DNA of 39,819 nt from assembly GCA_938001965.1 (NCBI GenBank), contig CALLBC010000114.1:1-39819 (forward strand), given 5' to 3'. Both the position numbers and the translations under genes were made by a program. Numbering within the stretch: position 1 is the stretch's first letter; every line of letters begins with the position of its first letter. The notes under the pieces were generated by a model. The model made no database searches and was not told where the DNA came from. It saw nothing but the letters and a program-made list of their open reading frames with translations. Positions 10,548 to 32,118 of this stretch are shown one piece after another. The DNA is from an uncultured Bdellovibrionales bacterium (GTDB lineage: Bacteria; Bdellovibrionota; Bdellovibrionia; Bdellovibrionales; UBA1609).

Positions 10548-12194
10548 ATGGAAAAAATTTCTGATAAAGCAAGACACCGTAGATTCAGTGTAAAAGATGA
10601 TTCTAATCTCATTCTAAATTTTAGTTCACCTTTAGGTTCAGAATATCAAATGAATATTCTCGACTGTTCAATCTCTGGAGCGCAAGGCCTAATTGAATCA
10701 AAATTGGTTGATTTTAAAGTTGGTGATATTTTAAATAATGCTAAGCTTATATTTGAAGATAATGAGTTACAGTGTGGCCGCTTAGTTGTTAAGAGAATTA
10801 TTGAATCAAATAATAAATCTAATATTGCTATCTCTACTATTGATATACGCCTTCCCTTGGATGGGTTCCTTGCTAAAGCCATAGATCGTGATTTCACAGG
10901 TAGAACTAGCTCTTTAGACATGCAACTAGATGAAAAAAAATTCTCGTTGGCTGATTTTCTTGAAGCAAGTTATGACAGTAATGATATATTAGATAGGTGC
11001 AGTAAATTTAATCTTTACTTTAAAGAATTTCAAAAATCTAAAAAGTTCTCATATTTTTATCCTAGAGAGTCGCTAAACTCCTCTAGAGTTAAAATTAAAT
11101 TCACCGATGCAAGACCTTCCAGAGAGCTACTAATGTTTGGATCAAATGATTATTTAGGGTTAGCCTCGAACCCTGAGGTAATAGAAGCTGCTAATGAAGC
11201 CAATTTAAAGTTTGGCATTGGTACTGGTGGATCAGCACAGACAGCAGGAAATACGACCCTTCATGAGGAATTAGAGGAGGTTGTAGCCCGGATGCATGGT
11301 AGAGAAGACGCCATAATTATGTCTTCTGGATTTGGAGTTAACCATGGAATTATTGGTGGTCTTGCTAGTGTTGGTGATTTAGTTATAGCTGATCAGAAAA
11401 GCCACGTCTCTATACAAGAAGGAATGGGGTCTTCGAGGGCTGCAATGCGATTTTTTAAACATAATGACATTGGCCATTTAAAAAAGGTATTAGACCGCGA
11501 AAGAGAGAAACATAAAGGCTGCCTTGTTGTTACTGAGGGGGCATTCTCTATGAGTGGGAACCTTGGAAAAATAGCTGAAATTGTAGATATTGCCAATCAA
11601 TATGACTTCAGAACAATGACCGATCAAGCTCACTGCTTTGGTATTCTAGGAGAAAACTATACTGGTGCCGCTGAGTACTTTGGAGTGTCTGATAAAGTTG
11701 ACATTATTATGGGTGTATTTTCTAAATCTGCTGGAACTATGGGAGCTTATGTCACAGGCTCTACTGAACTTATAAATTGGTACAAGGCTTATGCTAGGCC
11801 GTATCTATTTAGTACCTCCTTACCTACTGGAATAATAGCGGCAACGCTGAAAGCTATCGAGATAATGAAAAAAGGACACCTACAAGTAAAACTAGCAGAT
11901 AACATAAATAGATTTAAAAATGGACTTACTGCAATTGGACTCCCTGTTGATTTGGAAAGCTCAACAGCAATTATTCCAGTTGAAGTAGGTGATGAAAATT
12001 TGATGGGAGAAATTAACGATATCTTAATTAAAAATGGCGTTTATGCCATTCCTGTTGGTTACCCTGCGGTTCCCAAAAATACCTGTCGTTTTAGATTTTC
12101 AATCTCTGCAAAGCATAGCTCTAGTGATGTTGATTTTGTTTTAATGGTTTTGAAAAATGCCTTAACTCAAGTAAATTTTAAATTAAAATCTTAA
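10548..12194 (+). CDS. PilZ domain fused to an alpha-oxoamine synthase (CqsA/LqsA-like)
   Basis: A 548-residue fusion. Residues 1-120 resemble a PilZ cyclic-di-GMP domain: an arginine cluster RHRR near residue 9 and the DxSxxG motif DCSISG at 39-44. The exact RxxxR spacing is not perfect. Residues about 150-545 are a full PLP-dependent alpha-oxoamine synthase: FGSNDYLGLASNPEV, GTGGSAQTAGNTTLHEELE, a stacking histidine at H286 (KSHVSI), D359 and H362 (DQAHCFG), and the PLP lysine K393 (GVFSKSAG). This family condenses an acyl-CoA with an amino acid. Members include BioF, KBL, HemA, serine palmitoyltransferase and the autoinducer synthases CqsA and LqsA. The downstream sensor kinase favours a signal synthase. 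The start has AAGGA eight bases upstream. Confidence 0.85.
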   Translation: MEKISDKARHRRFSVKDDSNLILNFSSPLGSEYQMNILDCSISGAQGLIESKLVDFKVGDILNNAKLIFEDNELQCGRLVVKRIIESNNKSNIAISTIDIRLPLDGFLAKAIDRDFTGRTSSLDMQLDEKKFSLADFLEASYDSNDILDRCSKFNLYFKEFQKSKKFSYFYPRESLNSSRVKIKFTDARPSRELLMFGSNDYLGLASNPEVIEAANEANLKFGIGTGGSAQTAGNTTLHEELEEVVARMHGREDAIIMSSGFGVNHGIIGGLASVGDLVIADQKSHVSIQEGMGSSRAAMRFFKHNDIGHLKKVLDREREKHKGCLVVTEGAFSMSGNLGKIAEIVDIANQYDFRTMTDQAHCFGILGENYTGAAEYFGVSDKVDIIMGVFSKSAGTMGAYVTGSTELINWYKAYARPYLFSTSLPTGIIAATLKAIEIMKKGHLQVKLADNINRFKNGLTAIGLPVDLESSTAIIPVEVGDENLMGEINDILIKNGVYAIPVGYPAVPKNTCRFRFSISAKHSSSDVDFVLMVLKNALTQVNFKLKS

Positions 12195-12211
12195 TTGGAA
12201 ATTAACTAATT

Positions 12212-14080
12212 ATGTATGATTACTTAGTATCTATCTTTGTTTCCAGCCTAGTCTTCTTTGGGGCACAGCTAGAGCCACCAAACAGTAATAAATGGAGCAT
12301 TGAACAAAACTGGGATGGTGGAAATACCTTCATTGCCACCATTCCCGTTCAGAGTCTTAACTGCGTAGACGGACATTCACTTTACCTTCCTGTGGTTCAG
12401 TATGGCCAACAAGAAATATTAATTGGTACTAAATCCTTAAAATTTAATAACCCAAAAGAGCCTAAGAGTGTATATGCAAAGCCCTCAGTTAGCTGCAATC
12501 TTTTGGACTCGTTTAGTCAGAGTCAACTGACCTGGAAAGTTAAGTCATATAGTGAGTACTATGCTAGAGTAATGAGTTGGCCAACTGTGAAAGAGACAAC
12601 AAGAGTATCAAGGTCTGAGCTCATATATGTAGGCTCAACTTACTCTTTAATAGTCTTAGTATTATTCATGTTAATTTTATTCTATTCTACCTCAGACACC
12701 ACGTTACTACTCTATATTTGTTCTTCTGGAATACTTCAAGCTTTGTACTCTATTCTAACCGCAGGAGAAATGTTTGGCATAAAACTACAATTCAAAACAA
12801 TTCATCAATTAGCAGACCTCTGTCTTATTTTGGGTAACTGCCTACTATTCTATGCATTTAATAAATTTGGTTACTCAAGTAAAAGTTTTTTAAAAGCCCT
12901 AACAGTCGTTTCTATACTTTCATGCTTCTTAGTAATAATTGGTAAAAACGGAAATGAAATACAGTTTGGCACGACATTCTCTTTCTTACTTTGTTTAGTT
13001 GGACTACTATTTATTTTGGCCAAAAGTTTCATTGAAATTATAAGAAACATCACAATCAAAAATATATCTATACTATTTTGCATAATGTTCTTGTTTATTG
13101 GCTCCCTCGTAGAATCAGCTATTGCCGGCGGGTCTATCGAGGCAGATAGTTATTTCCCACTATATTTACTAATGGCGTTTATATCTTTTGCAATCTCTAT
13201 AAACGAGAATATAAGATATACTTATATTCAAAGAAATAAATTAGTAAATGAAATGGAGAGTATTATTGAGGATAAGACTATTGAGCTTAAAAAAACAAAT
13301 GCCAAACTTGTTGAATCTGAGAAGTTAAGTTCAATTGGGATCATGTCTGCAAGACTTGCTCATGAAATAAATAATCCTCTTAACTTTTTTTCTAGAATTA
13401 TATTAGACTATAACAGTGTAATTGAAGGCCTTTTTAAGCAAAAAGAAATCCTTATTAAAGATGAGCTTACAGAAGATAAGAAAACACATCTAAAAAAAAT
13501 AGATGAAGAATTTGAAATATCTGATTTTTTAGATGAAAAAGAATATATTTTCAAGACAAGCAGTGAATTAATTAATAAGATGACTAGTATTATAAAGAAA
13601 GTCGGTAATAAAGCACACAAAGAGCAGAGTAGCCCTCAAAAAGAAGATGTCAACATATTAGACGTACTAGAGGGACTCCACCTAACTGTTGATACAAAAA
13701 TTTATAACAAACACGATATTGAACTCTTAATAAATAAAAAAAACTCATTTATTGCTAACATTAATTCGGTTGAAATAAATCAAGTTCTTACTAATTTAAT
13801 TTCGAATTCATATTTTGCAATTAAAGAATCTGAAAAACCTGGAAAGATTACTGTCTCTTGCACAAAAGACAAAGAAATTATCGTTGAAGATAATGGGCCA
13901 GGTATTGATCAAGAAATTATCAGTAAAATATTCGATCCTTTTTTTACAACAAAAGATATCGACAAAGGTACCGGCTTAGGACTTCATATATGCAAAGACC
14001 TCGCGGCTAGTAATAACTCTACTTTAGATCTTGCTGAAAGCAAGCCTGGGTATACAAAATTTATTCTTAAATTTAACTAG
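12212..14080 (+). CDS. 7-TM sensor histidine kinase (possible signal receptor)
   Basis: A 622-residue membrane kinase. An N-terminal hydrophobic segment and an exported domain of about 110 residues are followed by seven membrane segments between about residues 140 and 340, the layout of 7TMR-DISM receptors. A short coiled coil leads into the kinase core: RLAHEINNPL with phosphoacceptor H384, the N-box NQVLTNLISNSYFAI, the G1 box VEDNGPGI, the F box FDPFFTTKD and the G2 box GTGLGL. It starts 17 bases after the synthase, so the two are co-transcribed. CqsA and LqsA are likewise linked to sensor kinases CqsS and LqsS, which have about six membrane segments and no large exported domain, so this receptor is of a different build. 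The ligand is inferred, not shown. Confidence 0.85.
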   Translation: MYDYLVSIFVSSLVFFGAQLEPPNSNKWSIEQNWDGGNTFIATIPVQSLNCVDGHSLYLPVVQYGQQEILIGTKSLKFNNPKEPKSVYAKPSVSCNLLDSFSQSQLTWKVKSYSEYYARVMSWPTVKETTRVSRSELIYVGSTYSLIVLVLFMLILFYSTSDTTLLLYICSSGILQALYSILTAGEMFGIKLQFKTIHQLADLCLILGNCLLFYAFNKFGYSSKSFLKALTVVSILSCFLVIIGKNGNEIQFGTTFSFLLCLVGLLFILAKSFIEIIRNITIKNISILFCIMFLFIGSLVESAIAGGSIEADSYFPLYLLMAFISFAISINENIRYTYIQRNKLVNEMESIIEDKTIELKKTNAKLVESEKLSSIGIMSARLAHEINNPLNFFSRIILDYNSVIEGLFKQKEILIKDELTEDKKTHLKKIDEEFEISDFLDEKEYIFKTSSELINKMTSIIKKVGNKAHKEQSSPQKEDVNILDVLEGLHLTVDTKIYNKHDIELLINKKNSFIANINSVEINQVLTNLISNSYFAIKESEKPGKITVSCTKDKEIIVEDNGPGIDQEIISKIFDPFFTTKDIDKGTGLGLHICKDLAASNNSTLDLAESKPGYTKFILKFN

Positions 14081-14765
14081 TTATTTTTGATCGGAGCTCA
14101 CTGAAAGCCTGCTCCAGAGATGAAAATGATTGTACATCATTGGTCGGAAGATACTTTAGCTCATGATTTGAATCACTTTTTGTGATTTCAGCTATTTCAT
14201 TTATACCCTCTGAGATAATAAACTTATCAAAAATCATGAACATTCGTACACTATTCTTTTCTAATTTTATTTCTTTAACAAGTCCATTCAATTTAACATA
14301 GTCTTCCATTTCGTAGGGATTACTACAATAAAACTCTAAAGCCCTAGCTCTGTACATAGTTAATAAATTTCTCCAACTATATGAAGCAGCCGTCTTAATC
14401 GTATTAACTATAGAATCCGAGTCTTCAATCCAATTAATTGGCTTTTCTAAATAATCAAAAAAGAATTTTTTACTTAAAATTCTAGATGACAAACCATCAT
14501 CTTCTTCTAAGTTACCGGTGATCATTATAAAATTTAAATATTCTTTTTCCAAAGCTAGTGCTCTAGCCAGCTCTTCACCTTTCATCTCAGGCATAGTCTG
14601 ATCAGTAACTACAACTAGAGGCTTGCTGTTTTTTTGAAGTAAATAATCTTTAGCTTCAACTGGATTACTGAAGGTTTTTAAATCAAAAATTTTTTTAAAA
14701 GTTTTTTTATAAACATATAAGTTCTGCTCTTCATCATCGACAAATACTATTTCTACATTTTTCAT
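14073..14765 (-). CDS. Response regulator with an unfamiliar C-terminal region
   Basis: A 230-residue protein. Residues 1-125 are a receiver domain with every key residue: D10 and D11 (FVDDEEQN), phospho-acceptor D55 (VVTDQTMPEMKGEE), T83 (MITG) and K108 (LEKP). The remaining 105 residues are not a DNA-binding, GGDEF, EAL or HD-GYP domain that I recognise; they are helical and acidic. The gene is convergent with the histidine kinase and the two overlap by eight bases at their 3' ends. It is the obvious partner of that kinase, but it is expressed from its own promoter on the other strand. Confidence 0.85.
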   Translation of the reverse strand: MKNVEIVFVDDEEQNLYVYKKTFKKIFDLKTFSNPVEAKDYLLQKNSKPLVVVTDQTMPEMKGEELARALALEKEYLNFIMITGNLEEDDGLSSRILSKKFFFDYLEKPINWIEDSDSIVNTIKTAASYSWRNLLTMYRARALEFYCSNPYEMEDYVKLNGLVKEIKLEKNSVRMFMIFDKFIISEGINEIAEITKSDSNHELKYLPTNDVQSFSSLEQAFSELRSKITS

Positions 14766-14864
14766 ATTTATATTTTACATTTTTTTTACGCAACATCAAG
14801 ATGACATAGCTTTAATAACTTTAGTCGAGTTGATCCTTATATGCTCATGAGATACTATGAGGGT

Positions 14865-15788
14865 ATGATTATAAATTTTAATGGCGTTAGAGGCTCTATA
14901 CCTTTTGGCAGAAGTCCCAATGACATGAAAGAACTACTAAATAGTGATCGCTCTTTTGACTTAAACAACCAAGAAGACTTTATTAAATACTGTGGGCTAG
15001 GCTTTCATAGTACGAATATCATGATTGAGAATGACAAAAAAGATAGTTGCCTACTAATTGATGGCGGATCAGGTATTATGTCAGCTGCCAATAAAATTTT
15101 CCGCGACTATGCTAGAGAGCCAGAAATAAATATTTTGCAAACCCATTTCCACTGGGACCACTTAATGGGTTATAACTTCTTTCCCCAGGTTTATATGGGT
15201 AAAGTGATTAACATCTACAGCCCTTTAGATAATTTAGAGGAAAATTTTGCACAGTTATTTACAAAACCATTTTTTCCGATTGAATATTCTTTCTTAAAAT
15301 CTAATTCTGAATTTAATTTTTTCAAAGTTGATCCTTACAAACAATATAATATCAGTAGTTTTGATGTCACGTTTTACAAACTTGACCACCCTGACCCATG
15401 TTGGGGGCCTCGTGTATCTATAGATGGCAAAACATACTCTCACGCCATTGATACAGAAGCTGAACGACTAGATATGGACTCATTAGGCAAAGATAGTGGG
15501 CTATATGAGAATTGTGATTTATTACACTTTGATGCTCCATACCTAGAAGAAGAAGTCATTGGCCCTAAAAAAGGGTGGGGACACGGTTCAACTTTACGAG
15601 CTTTTAAACTGGCAGAGTTATTTAACATAAAAGAGATATCTTTTGGTCATTACACACCAGATGTTAATTACCAAAAATATCAGAAAATTCTTAGCGCGAC
15701 ATCATCATACTTTGATAAGTTAGCTCCAAATCTTAAAAATAAATTAAAGTATAACTTTACGTACGATGGACAAATTATTAATATTTAG
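14865..15788 (+). CDS. Metallo-beta-lactamase-fold hydrolase
   Basis: About 307 residues. The opening MIINFNGVRGSIPFG is the hallmark of a hydrolase subgroup of the metallo-beta-lactamase fold that includes PhnP-like and phosphodiesterase-like proteins. Metal ligands are visible: HFHWDH (the HxHxDH motif) near residue 95, then DHPDPCWGPRV, DTE and GWGHGS. I chose ATG 14865 because family members start just before GVRGSIP; the frame is also open from ATG 14841 and neither has an ideal ribosome binding site. It sits beside the synthase-kinase-regulator genes, so it may hydrolyse a signal or nucleotide second messenger. The substrate cannot be read from sequence. Confidence 0.82.
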   Translation: MIINFNGVRGSIPFGRSPNDMKELLNSDRSFDLNNQEDFIKYCGLGFHSTNIMIENDKKDSCLLIDGGSGIMSAANKIFRDYAREPEINILQTHFHWDHLMGYNFFPQVYMGKVINIYSPLDNLEENFAQLFTKPFFPIEYSFLKSNSEFNFFKVDPYKQYNISSFDVTFYKLDHPDPCWGPRVSIDGKTYSHAIDTEAERLDMDSLGKDSGLYENCDLLHFDAPYLEEEVIGPKKGWGHGSTLRAFKLAELFNIKEISFGHYTPDVNYQKYQKILSATSSYFDKLAPNLKNKLKYNFTYDGQIINI

Positions 15789-15843: not shown

Positions 15844-16329
15844 TTAATGTACTAATGCTTCTTTGGAAACAAGATCTTCAATACTCAATGGCCCTTTAAA
15901 ACCTAAATTTTTGCATATAATATCAAGTGTATACAAATAAAAGTTACTTAAGTTATCTGATTCGTAAACAGACATATTTTTAAAAAACTCATCTTCAAGT
16001 ACAACTAGTTTATGAAACACTGGGCCTAGTATTTCACTAAGAGATAAATGTTTGAATGGGTAAAATGCAACTAGATGTTCACCTTCATCATCCTCTAGAC
16101 AGCTTTTTTTTGCTAAGAATAGCATCTCTAAGACTTTTGCTACAAATTTTGTGGAATTAAGTTTTACATGAGCCGTGTTCTTTGGACCTGGATGGCAAAT
16201 CACGTAATTTTCTTTAATATAGTCTAAAGCAATTTGAACAGTTGGTTTAAAGTGAGAGTTCCTAAGTTCTAAATAATTCTCCTCTCCAAAAAACACCTTA
16301 ATACTCTTGTATTTATCTATTTCACTCAC
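15844..16329 (-). CDS. Hypothetical protein, paralogue of the 31531 gene
   Basis: A 161-residue soluble protein of unknown family. Its whole length aligns with the 195-residue protein at 31531-32118. Shared features are GE-YL near the start, a YP(F/Y) pair followed by L-x-x-IL-x-P, then LE, FYL, IIC, LG and a terminal VH. Both end in valine-histidine. The second copy opens the conjugation block, so the pair probably has a plasmid-specific role such as transfer control. Here it is convergent with the hydrolase gene and divergent from the nuclease gene at 16714. Confidence 0.65.
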   Translation of the reverse strand: MSEIDKYKSIKVFFGEENYLELRNSHFKPTVQIALDYIKENYVICHPGPKNTAHVKLNSTKFVAKVLEMLFLAKKSCLEDDEGEHLVAFYPFKHLSLSEILGPVFHKLVVLEDEFFKNMSVYESDNLSNFYLYTLDIICKNLGFKGPLSIEDLVSKEALVH

Positions 16330-20015: not shown

Positions 20016-20046
20016 ATTGTAGAGATTGTAGAGATTGTAGAGATTG
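20016..20046. repeat. 9-bp direct repeats
   Basis: TAGAGATTG occurs three times in tandem (20020-20046) with a partial fourth copy at the left. It lies in the 300-base control region between the membrane-protein gene and abiEi. The role is unknown: possible regulator-binding sites or simple slippage. Confidence 0.6.
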
Positions 20047-20093
20047 TTACTTTCGGTTAAGTCTGCACATCAAAACTTTAGTATACAGTAAAA

Positions 20094-20246: not shown

Positions 20247-20257
20247 GATGGGTGAAT

Positions 20258-21139
20258 ATGAGAAAAAATACTACTCAAGAGATTAAATCTCGAATCAAGA
20301 CAGAACTGCCCGCTGTTTTTACCTATAAAAAAATAATGCAATTCATAAATAAGCTACAAGTGGACCTAGGTTTTAGTGACTCAATAAAATCAAACCTTAA
20401 TCGACATATATTTAAAGTTGAAGCTAAATGGTCATTAGCTCCTGAACTAGACTTTAGGTCGCTGAACAAAGAACCAAGTATACTAGAGCTGCTAGAAGGA
20501 GTATGCAATAGTGGAGCAAAGTATTACTTATCTCATCAGTCAGCATTGTACTTTAATGAATTAATTGAGCAGCGCCCATTAAATTATTATATATCGAGAG
20601 AATCAAAAGACAGAAAAAAAGGAGAAAAAGATACTTATAATCCTCGCCTTATAAAACAGTCCTTTATGAAGTCTCATCGAGTAACCTCAAAGTATTTTTC
20701 TTATGAGGGTTATAAGTCTTATATACTTGAAAAACAGGATTTAAAAAATACAGGAGTCATAGAAAAAAGAGTTAAAGACCAGGATAAATATATTTCAATA
20801 AGAATGACAGACGTTGAGCGTACTCTTCTCGATGCTGTTATAGCTCCGCAGTACTCAGGGGGTATATTAACAACCATCAATTGCTTTGAAAAAGCTGAAA
20901 TTAATTTAAAATACTTATTCCAATTATACAGTATCTACAGTCCTTTTTATCCTTACTGGCAAGCCTTGGGTTTAATTCTGGAAAAGTTAAAAGGTAGTGA
21001 GGTTGGTTATATCTGGGATTCATTTTTTAGCGATCAAAAAAAAGAGTTTTATTTAGACAGAAAGTTTAGATCATCTTGGCTCTATTCAGACAAGTGGCAA
21101 ATTCATTACCCAAAAGGAGTTTTTAGAGATGGATATTAA
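20258..21139 (+). CDS. abiEi: AbiEi-family antitoxin
   Basis: About 293 residues. The antitoxin of a type IV toxin-antitoxin/abortive-infection pair of the AbiE kind acts mainly as a DNA-binding repressor and opposes the nucleotidyltransferase toxin. The N-terminus (VFTYKKIMQFINKL, LNRHIFKVEAKWSLAPELDF) looks like the winged-helix part. The middle has the family segment YYLSHQSALYFNEL and later MTDVERTLLDAVIAPQYSGG, which is typical of AbiEi C-terminal domains. I took ATG 20258; GTG 20252 in the same frame is possible. Two palindromes upstream support autorepression. The gene overlaps abiEii by 11 bases. Confidence 0.8.
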   Translation: MRKNTTQEIKSRIKTELPAVFTYKKIMQFINKLQVDLGFSDSIKSNLNRHIFKVEAKWSLAPELDFRSLNKEPSILELLEGVCNSGAKYYLSHQSALYFNELIEQRPLNYYISRESKDRKKGEKDTYNPRLIKQSFMKSHRVTSKYFSYEGYKSYILEKQDLKNTGVIEKRVKDQDKYISIRMTDVERTLLDAVIAPQYSGGILTTINCFEKAEINLKYLFQLYSIYSPFYPYWQALGLILEKLKGSEVGYIWDSFFSDQKKEFYLDRKFRSSWLYSDKWQIHYPKGVFRDGY

Positions 21140-21992
21140 TGAAGTCATTGAAACTGCTTTAATAGCTATTTATAAAGATGATGTACTTAATGAGACGTTA
21201 TATTTAAAAGGAGGACAAGCATTGCGTTTTAGTGAAAACCTCACAGATAGATTTTCTAAAGATATTGATTTCTCTATTCGAGGAAAACTAATAAATGGAG
21301 ACCCTTTCTTTAAAAACTTAAAGCGTGCTCTGTATAAGGAATTTATTAGTAAAGGGTTTTATTTATTTGATTTTAAGCCAATAAAGAAGCCAAAAATTAA
21401 AAAGGTTGGAACCCCAGACTTTTGGGGAGGTTGGAGAATAGAGTTTAAAATTATTAATTCAAATAAAAAAGTATTACCCACAGAGGAAATGAGAAGGCAG
21501 GCTTTGATGCCTTTAGGATCAAATTCAACAGCTATTCCAATAGATGTTAGTGAGTATGAATATTGTCAGTCTATTGAAAAGGTAAAAATTAAGTCTGTTG
21601 AAGTGCAATCATACTCTAGGCTCTTAATAGTTTTGGAGAAACTGCGAGCAATATGTCAGCAGCATCCAGATTATAAGCTTGTTAGTTCTACGCCGAAAGA
21701 TAGGTCTCGTGATTATTACGATATCGAAAGATTACTATTAAAAGCTATATCAGAAAATACAATGGATATCTTTATTGATGAGGCTCGTAAGCATATAAGT
21801 GGTGTCTTTAATGCAAAAGAGGTGCCTTTAGTGTTACTTGGTAAAATATTTGAAAAAAATTTTATGGACATTCAAGAACTAGGATGGAAAGGTTTAAGAT
21901 CTACAGTATCAGTTAAAGTACAGGACTTTGAGTATTATAACGAAACACTTAAAAGTTTTATTCAGGAACTTAACTTAGATCTTACTGTATAA
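21129..21992 (+). CDS. abiEii: AbiEii/AbiGii-family nucleotidyltransferase toxin
   Basis: A 287-residue nucleotidyltransferase toxin. The fold's signature is complete: LKGGQALRF (the GG motif) near residues 27-35, then the catalytic RFSKDIDFS near 41-49, and later PIDVSEYEY. Family toxins add nucleotides to tRNA or otherwise stop growth, and they abort phage infection. It has the ribosome binding site AAGGAG inside the end of abiEi, so the two are translationally coupled. The IS begins only three bases after its stop codon, so the downstream context has been cut away. Confidence 0.85.
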   Translation: MDINEVIETALIAIYKDDVLNETLYLKGGQALRFSENLTDRFSKDIDFSIRGKLINGDPFFKNLKRALYKEFISKGFYLFDFKPIKKPKIKKVGTPDFWGGWRIEFKIINSNKKVLPTEEMRRQALMPLGSNSTAIPIDVSEYEYCQSIEKVKIKSVEVQSYSRLLIVLEKLRAICQQHPDYKLVSSTPKDRSRDYYDIERLLLKAISENTMDIFIDEARKHISGVFNAKEVPLVLLGKIFEKNFMDIQELGWKGLRSTVSVKVQDFEYYNETLKSFIQELNLDLTV

Positions 21993-22885: not shown

Positions 22886-23764
22886 CTATATATCTATTGC
22901 ATTACAACTACTTACGCCAATACCAACCTTAGCGTACTTAGTCGTTGTTGATATAGACTCATGCCCGAGTGTTTCCTGAATAACTCTAAGGTCTGCGCCG
23001 TTTTCTAAAGCAATAGTTGCATGAGTATGCCTCAGCCAGTGCGGAGAAACATTGTCGTTGATTCCTGCTCTTATAGCGGCCTCTCTAACTAACTTAAATA
23101 TGGTTACCGTCGATATTTTCTTACCATAACGAGAAGTAAATATTGGGTCACTCGGCTTACCACTATTTAGCTCAATGTAGGACAAAAGTTCTAAATGTAA
23201 TCTTTCTCCAATAGTAATTGTGCGAACCTTGTTACCCTTGCCTAAAACTATCAACAAGAAACCAGAGTCTCTTTTTTTAAGACTAGAGACTTTTAAGTTA
23301 GAAAGCTCTGAAACTCTAACCCCAGTTTTAATGAATGTTTTTAGTATTAATTTATTTCTAGTAGATGGCTCAAGTTCAATCATTCTCTTTACAACATCTA
23401 ATGAAAGAACTTTATACGTTGTATTGTCCTGTACTGAAATTTTATCTAAAGACTCCGTTGGATTTTTATTTAGCACCCCAACTTTTACTAGATATCTACA
23501 TAAAGAGGATATTGAGGCTCTATGGCGAACAAGAGTAGCGTTTCTTGCGCCACCTTCTTTTAGGCTCATTAAATATTTTGAAACTGAAAAAATCGTTATC
23601 TCATCAACTGACTGAATAGACTCACTTTCAAAAAAACTTAGGATATCTTTTTTGTAAGCCCGTCTTGTGTTGTTAGTCTTCTGAAAAAGCCAGGAGTTGA
23701 TATGGCTCATTTCCTGAATCACATCTTCAGTCTCTTTTAACTTACTAGTTTTTACTAATTCCAA
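22886..23764 (-). CDS. Tyrosine recombinase (XerC/XerD-like)
   Basis: A 292-residue site-specific recombinase. The N-terminal core-binding domain covers residues 1-100. The catalytic domain carries the conserved residues: arginine in KTGVRVSELSNLK, lysine in VLGKGNKVRTI, HWLRH, the second histidine in LGHESISTT, and tyrosine in TTKYAKV. It starts with TTG after AAAGGGG. Its length fits XerC/D more than phage integrases, so plasmid dimer resolution is the natural role. Alternatively it served integration of the accessory region. No recognisable dif-like site is seen beside it. The IS right end lies 17 bases past its stop. Confidence 0.9.
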   Translation of the reverse strand: MELVKTSKLKETEDVIQEMSHINSWLFQKTNNTRRAYKKDILSFFESESIQSVDEITIFSVSKYLMSLKEGGARNATLVRHRASISSLCRYLVKVGVLNKNPTESLDKISVQDNTTYKVLSLDVVKRMIELEPSTRNKLILKTFIKTGVRVSELSNLKVSSLKKRDSGFLLIVLGKGNKVRTITIGERLHLELLSYIELNSGKPSDPIFTSRYGKKISTVTIFKLVREAAIRAGINDNVSPHWLRHTHATIALENGADLRVIQETLGHESISTTTKYAKVGIGVSSCNAIDI

Positions 23765-25654: not shown

Positions 25655-26251
25655 GTGTTCGATCAAAAAAAACAGGCCAACAAAAAATATAACGACCACC
25701 TAGACCGACTCATTAAAAAATCTAAAGAAACTGAAATTAGTCGTGTTAAGAAAAAAAACAACAAATCAAATGGTCTTTCAAGAGCCACCCACTTTTCACA
25801 ATACCCTACCGTCACTTTTTATGACCCGCTTAGGCCTGAGTTTTCAAGGGTTTCTTGCCCCGACCTTAATTTATTTGAAAGTATTGGGGTAAAAGAGTTT
25901 AAAATGGGTGACGGCTTAATTGCCGCAGAAGCCATAGCTAAAAAAAAGTTATTATTTAAAATGAAAGCGCATATTGAGGCCAGAAAAAAAGCCTCTATTC
26001 CCTACCCTGAGATTAGCCTCATTAAAGAACTAGTAACTAAAAAATCTAAAAATAAAGGGACTGAGATTCCTATCAAACTTGTATCTAAAATTGTTGGTGT
26101 CAGTGAACAGTCCGTCCGCAAACGCTGTAATAAAGGGCTAATCCCCCACTCACGTGGTAAAGGCGTTAAGCGATATTTTTATTTAGAAGAGATTTTACCG
26201 CTTGCTTGCGAAGCTTATAAAAAAAGTCATCCAGAGTTGTTTAAACCCTAA
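25655..26251 (+). CDS. Putative DNA-binding protein with a C-terminal helix-turn-helix
   Basis: A 198-residue basic protein starting with GTG, with AAGGATG upstream. The N-terminal third is lysine-rich and probably disordered. The C-terminal 70 residues (VSKIVGVSEQSVRKRCNKGL, then IPHSRGKGVKRYFYLEEILP) look like a MerR/excisionase-type helix-turn-helix followed by a wing. It is convergent with the probable replication gene. A role in replication control or partition is plausible from position, but I do not recognise the family. Confidence 0.6.
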   Translation: MFDQKKQANKKYNDHLDRLIKKSKETEISRVKKKNNKSNGLSRATHFSQYPTVTFYDPLRPEFSRVSCPDLNLFESIGVKEFKMGDGLIAAEAIAKKKLLFKMKAHIEARKKASIPYPEISLIKELVTKKSKNKGTEIPIKLVSKIVGVSEQSVRKRCNKGLIPHSRGKGVKRYFYLEEILPLACEAYKKSHPELFKP

Positions 26252-26359: not shown

Positions 26360-28114
26360 TTATTTACCTTCATTTTCATTAAAATTAGTTTCAAAATAAC
26401 CCTGTAACTGAATATCCTGTAGTTTGCTCCCTTCAGAAATTAAATTACTTGGAGGAACATAGTTATTAATTTGATCCTGGGTAAGCCCTTCCTTCCAGCT
26501 ATTAAACTTTTTAAGTAACGCAATTTCAGCTTTTTGTTTTTCTAATTCATCTAATAACCTCTTCCTTTCTGCAAGCTCTTTAAGCATATTTTGTTCTTCG
26601 CTTATATAAGCCTCAGATACGTACTGGTTCGATTTTTTCAAAATACCTACAATCATATTAAGTTTACCAAATCCTGCTCTTACAGAGCCATTTTGCAAGT
26701 CTAAGGCATAATGGTTAAGCGACTCCTGAAGAGAATTCATATCTAATTTATACTGTGGGATAATTTGTCTTAAATGAGATTCATTAAAACCAACATTTAA
26801 AACTTCTTCTGGAATCTCGATTTGGTTAAGCAGGCTATCTAGGTCATTCTCATTTATAGTAGTAGTATTTTTTAAATTAAAATTATTACTACTACTATGA
26901 GGAGCTGAACCCTTTTCTAGACCCCTTTCTGAACCCCTATTGTGCTCTTTATGTGCTCCTATTGTGCTCTTATTATTCAAGTTTTCTTTAGCTTGATTAT
27001 GGTTTGAATATAAAATTTTAGTGTATAGTTCCTCTGAAATAGTAAACTTAAGCCAGCCTGAGCGGCCTCTTTTACTACCGCTTCTTGCTAAAAATCCTTT
27101 ATCAACAACCCTTTTAATAACAGTTTTCAAGGTGTTACCTTTAATTTCAAGAGCTTGGGTTATATAAGATCGACTAAGCTTTGAGCTTTCTAGGCCGCCC
27201 TGTAATACGCAGTTTGAGTGGATAAACATTAGAAGTCTAAGCTCTAGCCCCCCAAGTACCTCATAATCAGCCCTCAATGTTCTGTGCTCTAATTGTGCTC
27301 CAATTAAATCTAAGCTTGTACCCTTTTTAGCACCCTTATTGTGCTCTAAATAAGAGTTTTGATTTACACTTTCGTGCTCTAATTGTGCTCTAACTAACTC
27401 CTTGTGCTCTTTATGTGCTCTAATTGTGCTCTGTTTTTCTTTTACATGTTTATTTTTACTTAATGGCTTAGAGTTATATTCGTGCTCTAATTGTGCTCTT
27501 ATTAGGGTGTCTGAAAGCTCTTTGATTTCACTATTTTCGTGCTCTAATTGTGCTCTAATTGAGAGAGTCTCTTTATTTGCTTCTTGTGCTCTAATTGTAC
27601 TCTTATTCTCCGTTAAAAAGCTGCCTTTACTATTTTCAAGTTCATTCTCGTGCTCTAATTGTGCTCCAATTGTGCTCCCTGTTACGGATGCGACTTCAGT
27701 ATTTTTGTGCTCTAATTGTGCTCTTAATAATTTATTATCTACACAATCATCTTGTGCTCCAATTGTGCTCTTATTTTTATTAAATGTTTCATTCTTATTA
27801 CTCTTAGGCTCTTTATTTCTGTGCTCTAATTGTGCTCCAATTGTGCTCTTTTTAAAGCTAATTTCCCCAGCAGTAGTTTTATCCTTGGTAAGGGTAGGGT
27901 TTCTATTTTTGTTTGATGATGAGCTTTCTGGGGGCTCTATGACCTTGTCAATATTAGAAGAACCATTTACCTCTAAACTAGACTGCTTGTTAGTAACCTG
28001 TTGCTCAGGCTCATCCCAAGGCTTCGGTCGCTTTTTCTTTTTGACCCTTTTATTAAGTTTTTTTGCGAGCTTATCAGAGACTGGACTCTGTATAAACTTT
28101 TCATCTAAAGCCAT
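26360..28114 (-). CDS. Probable replication initiator carrying an internal iteron array
   Basis: A 584-residue protein. Residues 1-85 are basic and low in complexity. Residues 88-278 are dominated by repeats of the type IGAQLEH and IRAQLEH, encoded by 11-bp-spaced DNA iterons. Residues about 280-375 form a winged-helix domain (GGLELRLLMFIHSNCVL, SRSYITQALEIKGNTLKTVI, RSGWLKFTISEEL). Then comes another iteron-coded patch (residues 381-391), a helical region and a coiled coil (MLKELAERKRLLDELEKQKA). It lies four bases after parA and no other replication gene is visible, so it is the best initiator candidate. A lambda O-like plan, with the origin inside the initiator gene, would fit. A ParB-like centromere-binding role is the main alternative. 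Confidence 0.6.
   Translation of the reverse strand: MALDEKFIQSPVSDKLAKKLNKRVKKKKRPKPWDEPEQQVTNKQSSLEVNGSSNIDKVIEPPESSSSNKNRNPTLTKDKTTAGEISFKKSTIGAQLEHRNKEPKSNKNETFNKNKSTIGAQDDCVDNKLLRAQLEHKNTEVASVTGSTIGAQLEHENELENSKGSFLTENKSTIRAQEANKETLSIRAQLEHENSEIKELSDTLIRAQLEHEYNSKPLSKNKHVKEKQSTIRAHKEHKELVRAQLEHESVNQNSYLEHNKGAKKGTSLDLIGAQLEHRTLRADYEVLGGLELRLLMFIHSNCVLQGGLESSKLSRSYITQALEIKGNTLKTVIKRVVDKGFLARSGSKRGRSGWLKFTISEELYTKILYSNHNQAKENLNNKSTIGAHKEHNRGSERGLEKGSAPHSSSNNFNLKNTTTINENDLDSLLNQIEIPEEVLNVGFNESHLRQIIPQYKLDMNSLQESLNHYALDLQNGSVRAGFGKLNMIVGILKKSNQYVSEAYISEEQNMLKELAERKRLLDELEKQKAEIALLKKFNSWKEGLTQDQINNYVPPSNLISEGSKLQDIQLQGYFETNFNENEGK
26942..27848. repeat. Iteron array inside a coding sequence
   Basis: The hexamer GTGCTC followed by a spacer such as TAATT recurs with starts exactly 11 bp apart in twelve clusters of one to three copies. 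First bases are 26942, 26953, 26964; 27284, 27295; 27341; 27374, 27385; 27404, 27415, 27426; 27482, 27493; 27539, 27550; 27586 and a variant GTACTC at 27597; 27650, 27661, 27672; 27707, 27718; 27754, 27765; 27821, 27832, 27843. That makes 26 exact copies and one variant. Because 11 is not a multiple of three, neighbouring copies are read in different frames, so the DNA word is what is conserved. A near-consensus DnaA box, TTATCTACA, lies at 27735-27743. Confidence 0.9.
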
Positions 28115-28118
28115 AGCT

Positions 28119-29204
28119 TTACCTTCTTGCTAAATTGTCAGAGCTTTCTGATGTAACTTTATCTTCGATTGAAACATCATCATCATCAATAAACTCAACT
28201 AACTTTTGGAACTCTATAAATACTTGTATTAGATCAGCATAAGTTGCTGAAGTGGGTGAGTACTCAGCAATAGATTTATGAATTTGCTGAGCTTCATCAA
28301 ACACAACAGACTCTTTGAGAGCAGTTCTCGAGCAAATATCCGAATATTGAGTTTCATATACGGTTCTTACTTGTCGACTTAATTTTGAGCTTTTAAGAAG
28401 GGTAGGGATAATAAACTTTTGTGCGTCAGTATGGCCATCCTCTTCAAATTCATTAAGCATATTAAAAAATACTCGCGAGATTTTTAAAGTTGAAGAATTA
28501 CATGCCAATGGTGATAAAATTATATCAGATATATAAAGTACAGAGTTTACAGTTCTGTTCCATGCGGGGTTGCAATCAAAAACAATATAATCATATTTAG
28601 ATAATGATTTTGATTGTAAAATCTTTTTCATAGCAAGCAATGGATTAGGGTGACTAGAAATTAGACTTTCAAAGGCTGCCAGCCCTGCGTTTTCAGGAAT
28701 GTAGTGGAGTAAATCATTTAATTCAGTACTTTTTATAACTTCATCAATTTTTTTATCACCCTTAAGACATTCATATAAACCGTCGTTATACAAGTCGTCT
28801 AAATCATCAGGTAATTGCTCTAATTCTGCGCGCGCCCCCAACAAAGAAGTAATAGTCTCCTGTGAGTCTAAACCAATAACAAGTGTCTTAAGGTTGTGTA
28901 AAGATAATGTTCTGGCAAAATTAAATGCTAAAGGAGTTTTTCCTGTGCCCCCTTTTTGTGTATAAAAAGTAACAATCTTCTGCTCTTTAGGTTTTTTAAA
29001 AAAACCTAGTTTCTCACCAATCTGAGGTAGATCTGAAAGTTCCCAGTATCTAAAGGTCGAGCTCTTACCACGCGCCCCGCGCTTCGCTTTGGGTATCTTA
29101 CCCTCATTTTCCATTTTAATTAGTCCAGCTCTAGTTATATTCTTTCCAAACATATTTAAAACATTATTAACTGTAAATTGATTGCTAGTATTAGTTCCAG
29201 ACAT
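28119..29204 (-). CDS. parA: ParA-family partition ATPase with N-terminal DNA-binding domain
   Basis: A 361-residue plasmid-type ParA. Residues 8-65 look like a MerR-type helix-turn-helix (FTVNNVLNMFGKNITRAGLI, FRYWELSDL), as in the long autoregulatory ParA proteins. The deviant Walker A motif KGGTGKT is at 84-90, preceded by IVTFYTQ. LVIGLDSQ follows, and DYIVFDCNPAWN forms the Walker A'/B region. The start ATG has AGGGGG five bases upstream. It is followed after four bases by the iteron-bearing gene. No classical parB is seen, so the partner is probably the next gene or the protein at 25655. It likely represses its own promoter at the GTATAC palindromes upstream. Confidence 0.9.
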   Translation of the reverse strand: MSGTNTSNQFTVNNVLNMFGKNITRAGLIKMENEGKIPKAKRGARGKSSTFRYWELSDLPQIGEKLGFFKKPKEQKIVTFYTQKGGTGKTPLAFNFARTLSLHNLKTLVIGLDSQETITSLLGARAELEQLPDDLDDLYNDGLYECLKGDKKIDEVIKSTELNDLLHYIPENAGLAAFESLISSHPNPLLAMKKILQSKSLSKYDYIVFDCNPAWNRTVNSVLYISDIILSPLACNSSTLKISRVFFNMLNEFEEDGHTDAQKFIIPTLLKSSKLSRQVRTVYETQYSDICSRTALKESVVFDEAQQIHKSIAEYSPTSATYADLIQVFIEFQKLVEFIDDDDVSIEDKVTSESSDNLARR

Positions 29205-31530: not shown

Positions 31531-32118
31531 ATGAGTTTAAACAAAAAAGGTATGCAGCTTGCTTCATTTGGTTTGCCTATGCATGAAAAGAACGCATTAT
31601 CGATTCAAAAACCAACAGAAGATAAAAGTAAAGGTAAAATATTTAACCTCAGTCGATTGCAGCTATTATTAGATAGTGGAGAGTCATACTTGTATTCTGG
31701 TTTAAGCATTCAGGAGAAACCTAAGCAATGGTTGTATGATAAACTTGAGAGTTCTTTTATTGTGATTGGTTATAATAAAGATGGCAAAGTCATACTTGAA
31801 AAAAACACAAATAGTTATCTGATGTCATTTTTAAAAATATTTAATATTGCGAGGAATCAGTATCTGAACAAAAAAGAAGTAGATGTGTTGGCGCCAATAT
31901 ACCCATATGGCAACACGCCACTTAATAAAATACTAGAGCCAAATATTGTTAGGTTGATAAAGTTAGAGAAAAAATTATACGCTGATTTACCAATTGCAGA
32001 TAAAGAAAATATTTACAGCTTTTACCTAGAAGCAACAAGTATTATCTGTGAAAGCCTAGGCTTAGCAGACCCAATCACTATCATGAGCTATGAATCAAAC
32101 TTAGAAACAGTCCATTAA
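31531..32118 (+). CDS. Hypothetical protein, first gene of the conjugation block
   Basis: A 195-residue soluble protein of unknown family, with ATG after GGAGGAAATAA. Residues 45-195 align over their whole length with the 161-residue protein at 15844-16329. Shared positions include GE-YL, the YPY/YPF pair, L-x-x-IL-x-P, LE, FYL, IIC, LG and the terminal VH. The first 45 residues are extra and rich in polar residues. It is separated from the coupling-protein gene by two perfect hairpins, so it may be more strongly expressed than the genes after it. Its leading position suggests a regulator or recipient-recognition role, which is inference. Confidence 0.65.
   Translation: MSLNKKGMQLASFGLPMHEKNALSIQKPTEDKSKGKIFNLSRLQLLLDSGESYLYSGLSIQEKPKQWLYDKLESSFIVIGYNKDGKVILEKNTNSYLMSFLKIFNIARNQYLNKKEVDVLAPIYPYGNTPLNKILEPNIVRLIKLEKKLYADLPIADKENIYSFYLEATSIICESLGLADPITIMSYESNLETVH

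Follow-up and report, generated by a model that had tools for sequence, protein, structure and literature searches.

Background

Some replicons keep their origin of replication inside the gene for their own initiator, as has been proven for lambda and pSK41. The lambda O gene carries iterons in its middle, with an AT-rich tract adjoining them (PMC7466680). In pSK41, a RepA_N plasmid, the origin repeats lie inside rep, where they code for a dispensable linker and are bound by the winged-helix (wHTH) domain (PMC5703833). Natural RepA_N chimeras like pPR9 have swapped the DNA-binding domain along with the origin and kept the C-terminal domain, and they are compatible (PMC5703833). The repABC plasmids of the Alphaproteobacteria have a parA-led operon ending in an initiator, and the A+T-rich coding region of that initiator holds the origin (PMC3155836).

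The published analysis of the Piscirickettsia salmonis LF-89 plasmids found neither an origin nor iterons on any of them, and on three it found no initiator or rep gene (PMC6963756).

The plasmid gene described here is alike in design. Judged from its sequence and that of its relatives, there is roughly a two in three probability that it encodes a plasmid replication initiator and contains its own origin, made up of iterons and an unwinding element. An intragenic origin is favoured over a centromere alone, and the origin would probably be the centromere as well.

The plasmid and its gene

The window, meaning the whole stretch of DNA analysed (39,819 nucleotides), has ends that overlap exactly over 141 bp. 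This bears out the 39,678-bp circle of the preliminary description. A sister plasmid, C197, is also circular. The genome is a draft of 266 contigs, and co-residence of the window and C197 is for that reason presumptive.

The gene, its parts and its neighbours are:

26360..28114, minus strand: initiator-like gene, 584 amino acids
27284..27848, minus strand: array 1, with 23 exact copies of GAGCAC and the variant GAGTAC at 11-bp pitch, coding for the linker that precedes the winged helix
27005..27271, minus strand: winged-helix domain, about amino acids 282-370, the apparent reader of the words judging by word covariation
26942..26969, minus strand: array 2, with three words at 11-bp pitch, past the winged-helix coding region
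26856..26898, no strand assigned: palindrome of ATAGTAGTAGTA, 19 bp that are all A-T, and TACTACTACTAT, a probable unwinding element
26363..26851, minus strand: C-terminal domain, 163 amino acids, helical, pLDDT 91.6
28119..29204, minus strand: ParA ATPase whose N-terminus has an HTH-like extension, immediately upstream of the gene
25655..26251, plus strand: HTH_17 protein, convergent with the gene; C197 has a 74% identical copy at the corresponding position

Along the protein (gene 26360-28114), a basic N-terminus is followed by an array-coded linker, the winged helix, a short array-coded linker, the palindrome-coded SSSNNFNLKNTTT and the helical C-terminal domain.

The rest of the window holds some other recognisable genes. 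A tyrosine recombinase (22886-23764), 77% identical on C197, is perhaps a plasmid dimer resolver. Cargo genes at 10548-15788 encode an enzyme of the BioF/serine-palmitoyltransferase type that carries an additional N-terminal portion, together with a histidine kinase, a response regulator and a protein resembling metallo-hydrolases; there is also an NCBIfam match to an alpha-hydroxyketone autoinducer synthase family, and this is possibly a signalling module. The gene pair at 20252-21992, with an AbiEii nucleotidyltransferase as its second member, is likely a type IV toxin-antitoxin system. Paralogous small proteins without an assigned function (15844-16329 and 31531-32118) also occur in two copies on C197. 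The intergenic stretch 20016-20047 is a perfect 9-bp tandem repeat, ATTGTAGAG, in 3.6 copies.

The 11-bp words

The sequence GTGCTC, which reads GAGCAC on the gene strand, has 26 exact copies between 26942 and 27848, plus the variant GTACTC at 27597. These 27 words fall in 12 clusters, with GAGCAC(AATTA) as the repeat unit, and the iterons, their 11-bp spacing and their use of three frames are as the preliminary description had reported. It had treated them as one array. The copy total and the clusters stand, but there are in fact two arrays, which flank the winged-helix coding region with some 315 bp between them.

Over both strands of the whole 39.8-kb window GTGCTC is seen 34 times, against 7.8 expected by chance, and 26 of the 34 are in the gene. 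There, 14 word pairs are exactly 11 bp apart. The protein was also held fixed while synonymous codons were redrawn from the plasmid's own codon usage. In 2000 such runs the mean was 2.9 words and 0.17 11-bp pairs, with maxima of 9 and 3. The real count exceeds these values, which marks the word as a feature of the DNA.

The words are read as E-H (10 copies), as (G/R)-A-(Q/H) (11 copies) and as S-T (5 copies). Because the copies are read in all three frames, the word is kept as DNA and not as peptide, as was first proposed. The frames can also account for clusters stopping at three copies, the last one E-H: in the consensus GAGCACAATTA, another copy straight after the E-H frame gives ...AAT TAG, a stop. 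It is proposed that the coded STIGAQLEH residues are a spacer.

A reading at the protein level would have a low-complexity linker selected as peptide, with the DNA repetition as a by-product of slippage. A few relatives (L124, L014) do have in-frame repeats of 33 or 45 bp. Yet nearly all members have the 11-bp word in several frames and above synonymous resampling, and the word covaries with the wHTH. The synonymous-codon test rules out a peptide repeat here, and for the family this explanation has a negligible chance of being right.

The family of relatives

About 64 distinct relatives were gathered through tblastn, genome searches and collection scans. Their hosts are Bdellovibrionota, Piscirickettsia salmonis, Legionella, Fluoribacter, Coxiellaceae, Holosporales, Bandiella and Cardinium, and thus include Legionellales; there are also IMG/VR contigs. 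With one relative as query, tblastn matched 140 P. salmonis plasmid records, and pPSLF89-3 of strain LF-89 carries a gene of this family, with degenerate words and a palindrome. Searches of phages by tblastn gave no relatives, and viral contigs queried with the C-terminal domain gave no match. A profile of the diverse family was nowhere conserved well enough to be used in collection scans. No published description of the family was found in the open-access literature.

In 42 of 55 relatives parA is directly upstream, usually within 30 nt; the others are mostly contig ends, fragments or loci that do have an annotated parA. Nearly all of the measurable gaps between parA and the gene fall between -23 and +30 nt.

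Most relatives have an 11-bp ladder at the same place, in two or three frames and usually on both sides of the wHTH coding region. Each lineage has its own word, among them AGACAAAGTGG, AACGGAACACA, TAGTTCAAATC and AAAGTCGGGGC. In a few cases, Legionella L011 and L025 and Cardinium L012, there was no clear ladder. It had been suggested to look for homologues that keep IGAQLEH while the codons drift. This was not seen; the word is replaced outright, and the multi-frame DNA ladder of 11 bp is kept. Comparison of relatives in this way supports the earlier placing of an origin or centromere within the gene.

Successive runs of words are for the most part separated by 11n+1 to 3 bp, which would keep the words close to a single helical face; the statistic (Rayleigh R 0.61 at 11.0 bp, 154 gaps) is indicative only, as members share ancestry.

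Some relatives are short. They have ParA, array and wHTH, and lack the palindrome and the C-terminal domain (L125 1047-1916, L127 1047-1796 and L020 1050-1781). They occur on plasmids of F. dumoffii and P. salmonis, where a neighbouring divergent gene has matches to O-like initiator profiles. The cassette of these short forms is probably a partition module only, which points to the long form being a partition reader coupled to a replication module.

Locus L126 has a short wHTH gene without an internal array. Beyond it, downstream of 2716, there are imperfect tandem repeats with the palindrome AATAGGGG...CCCCTATT, possibly an external centromere. The archaeal MAG loci L106-L110 were rejected as members: the wHTH is similar, but there are no arrays or palindrome, and several are in frames with cytochrome-oxidase-type sequence. 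L107-L110, which are Marine Euryarchaeota MAG contigs, show this combination of a similar wHTH, such open frames and no arrays.

The palindrome

Just past array 2 is the palindrome ATAGTAGTAGTA-TTTTTTAAATTAAAATTAT-TACTACTACTAT, with the pattern (TAG)n, an AT-rich core, and (CTA)n. Relatives code it as SSSS...TTTT, using AGT for 117 of 146 serines (background 0.23) and ACT for 85 of 92 threonines (background 0.29). It is fixed at the codon level, with P about 1e-48. In one subgroup the arms covary, a left-arm AAT being matched by a right-arm ATT (permutation P=0.0005).

The core averages 95% A/T in relatives, and nowhere is the gene richer in AT (median top 0.5% of windows). The order, array and then AT-rich tract, is fixed within the gene. 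In position and composition the palindrome matches the AT-rich tract beside the iterons of known origins, and it is probably an unwinding element. No strict DnaA box was found near it, and an Rfam search gave no match.

Among complete genes with the C-terminal domain, 34 of 59 have the palindrome and 25 have no recognisable one, versus 0 of 6 complete genes without that domain.

The palindrome also folds stably as a single strand, which would suit a scheme of autorepression: the arrays would be operators for a protein that represses its own operon, and the palindrome an mRNA hairpin. Folds of the wHTH type are typical of repressors. The words, however, are inside the coding region, and the GTGCTC count across the window has no cluster upstream of parA. 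Ten to 30 copies on one helical face are also many for an operator, and autorepression leaves both the AT-richness of the palindrome and its link to the C-terminal domain unexplained. This makes it very improbable.

Protein domains

An AlphaFold model of the wHTH together with the C-terminus has a confident MarR/ArsR-like wHTH, so that the winged helix proposed earlier is backed by model as well as sequence. The stretch coded by array 2 and the palindrome is predicted to be disordered. The preliminary description took the repeat-coded residues for a tolerated linker; the comparison of relatives favours this, and the disorder prediction agrees with it for the modelled part, which is the one past the wHTH.

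PDB matches of the wHTH model are generic wHTHs, the pNOB8 centromere-binding protein and TubR among them. Named viral matches include several replication proteins. Profile matches of the wHTH-plus-C-terminal crop and of relatives are led by phage replication-initiation, O-like and DnaD-like families, mainly via the wHTH. The window crop matches phrog_678 'O-like' at 3e-4, mainly over the wHTH, and relatives match several such profiles. The full window protein gave only weak wHTH matches in Pfam (to E=1), NCBIfam and PHROGs; no RepA_N domain or O-type match was found in it with Pfam to E=1, and Pfam and NCBIfam scans had no match to RepC.

The C-terminal fold (pLDDT 91.6) has no confident relative, with a best Foldseek E of 2.9 and a VIA-align Z of at most 4.4. 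This is no evidence for a new fold.

No other known initiator family was detected among the window proteins scanned or on pBdHAGR4, a plasmid discussed below that also encodes a Replic_Relax-type protein and others of unassigned role.

Probable word reader and cassette swaps

Over 40 non-redundant members, the more alike the wHTHs are, the more alike the words (Mantel r=0.444, 0 of 3000 permutations). For the same members r is 0.014 against the C-terminal domain and 0.022 against ParA. We infer that the wHTH reads the words.

Natural exchanges point the same way. L037 and L058, which come from two separate genomes within the phylum, have wHTHs that are 77% identical and the same word, and C-terminal domains that are 13% identical. 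Conversely, pBdHAGR4 and pBdHAGR5, complete plasmid records from one strain, have a 7,264-bp block in common at 99.7% and C-terminal domains that are 95% identical, whereas wHTH, word and ParA differ. Between the window and C197 the C-terminal coding region is 97% identical as DNA; the wHTHs are 21% identical, and the words differ. Both of these plasmid pairs, the two swaps that were examined, break at the outer edge of the palindrome.

In 13 co-resident pairs with comparable words, word similarity is no higher than background (0.48 versus 0.49), and five co-resident pairs have C-terminal domains that are 82-97% identical. Diverged words with shared C-termini are as predicted for a determinant of incompatibility.

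The strongest rival is partition only. The gene product would then bind an intragenic centromere as the partner of ParA, with replication starting elsewhere on the plasmid. parA adjoins in nearly all relatives with no separate ParB, the short relatives live beside a divergent O-like initiator, and the many proteins that the wHTH resembles include TubR and the pNOB8 protein. Against this, the AT-rich palindrome and the conserved C-terminal domain have no obvious role in a centromere, and the scans of window proteins and of pBdHAGR4 found no other known initiator. A shared initiator elsewhere would also be expected to make pBdHAGR4 and pBdHAGR5 incompatible, given their common 7.3 kb and differences mainly in cassette and ParA. 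On balance partition only is unlikely, if far from negligible.

Proposed mechanism

For a replication initiator with its own origin, the following steps are proposed. In both arrays the wHTH would bind the words on a single face of the helix. An array loaded in this way would strain or melt the adjoining palindrome at 26856-26898, helped by the AT core, after which the C-terminal domain would recruit a host helicase or primase. ParA, from the same operon and without a separate ParB, probably uses the loaded array as its centromere. The cassette of word and wHTH, sometimes with ParA, would set incompatibility and be swapped while palindrome and C-terminal domain stay.

Several results argue for the initiator reading: the excess over synonymous resampling, the covariation of wHTH and word, and the shared C-terminal domains with different wHTHs and words in both plasmid pairs and others. 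To these can be added the palindrome occurring only with the C-terminal domain and forming the edge of both swaps, the replication profiles that lead the matches, and a layout shared with lambda and pSK41, whose intragenic origins are proven (PMC7466680, PMC5703833).

Other results weaken it. The short relatives beside an O-like initiator mean that the cassette alone may be for partition only. The profile matches run mainly via the wHTH, a fold common to repressors and centromere-binding proteins. The 25 of 59 genes without a recognisable palindrome, the C-terminal fold without a named relative and the Replic_Relax-type protein of pBdHAGR4 also count here. Cumulative GC skew, put forward earlier as a check on the origin, lends no support: its detrended minimum is near 31.2 kb, away from the gene, and is confounded by gene orientation.

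The array past the wHTH, the conserved AT-rich palindrome, the covariation and the natural cassette swaps between co-resident plasmids all go beyond the preliminary description. In a wider reading, one gene would be initiator, origin, centromere and incompatibility tag. A word read by the gene's own wHTH would melt the palindrome and carry ParA segregation, and exchange of the word-wHTH cassette would be how co-resident plasmids diversify, with a single replisome-recruiting module common to them. Such plasmids would form a widespread and so far uncharacterised class of Gram-negative replicons that originated in the fusion of a ParA-wHTH partition module and a replication module. It is a tentative picture, with a chance somewhat short of even.

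If true, it would explain the upkeep of many Bdellovibrionota, Piscirickettsia and Legionella-type plasmids that lack a recognisable rep gene or origin. The roughly 40 naturally matched wHTH-word pairs are a data set for a DNA-recognition code, and incompatibility can be tested directly with co-resident plasmids whose main difference is the cassette. As a comparative method, conservation of short words across reading frames reveals origins inside coding sequence.

Comparison with known systems

RepA_N plasmids are similar in that repeats inside the gene code for a linker, a wHTH is present, and swaps keep the C-terminal domain; here, binding and origin activity are predictions. The differences are the missing RepA_N domain, a central wHTH flanked by words, a word of 11 bp that is read in three frames, a palindromic AT element and an immediate parA. 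The hosts here are Gram-negative, while RepA_N is found on Gram-positive theta plasmids.

With lambda O the gene shares iterons and an adjoining AT-rich tract in mid-gene; there is also a weak O-like profile match, mainly over the wHTH. It differs by having no Pfam O match, many short words in place of lambda's 4-6 longer iterons, inverted TAG/CTA arms around the AT core, and a plasmid with parA as its setting. The repABC operon is likewise led by parA, but here there is no RepB between parA and the gene and no RepC domain; repABC origins have no iterons, whereas here they dominate.

Systems of ParA with a small centromere-binding protein, or with wHTH binders like TubR and pNOB8 AspA, also place ParA next to a wHTH protein and repeated words, and the short relatives fit this. 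A ParA ATPase in an operon with a predicted DNA-binding partner is present here too. The repeats in this case are, however, inside the binder's own coding sequence, and the long form adds the palindrome and C-terminal domain.

The palindrome arms, as repeated TA(G/A) trinucleotides beside an AT-rich core, recall the DnaA-trio/BUS elements (PMC8287927). The arms are an inverted repeat with no strict DnaA box nearby, and a DnaA-trio interpretation was set aside as the polarity to the AT core appears reversed.

By the features tested, this is a separate family from lambda O, RepA_N and repABC, even if the design is alike.
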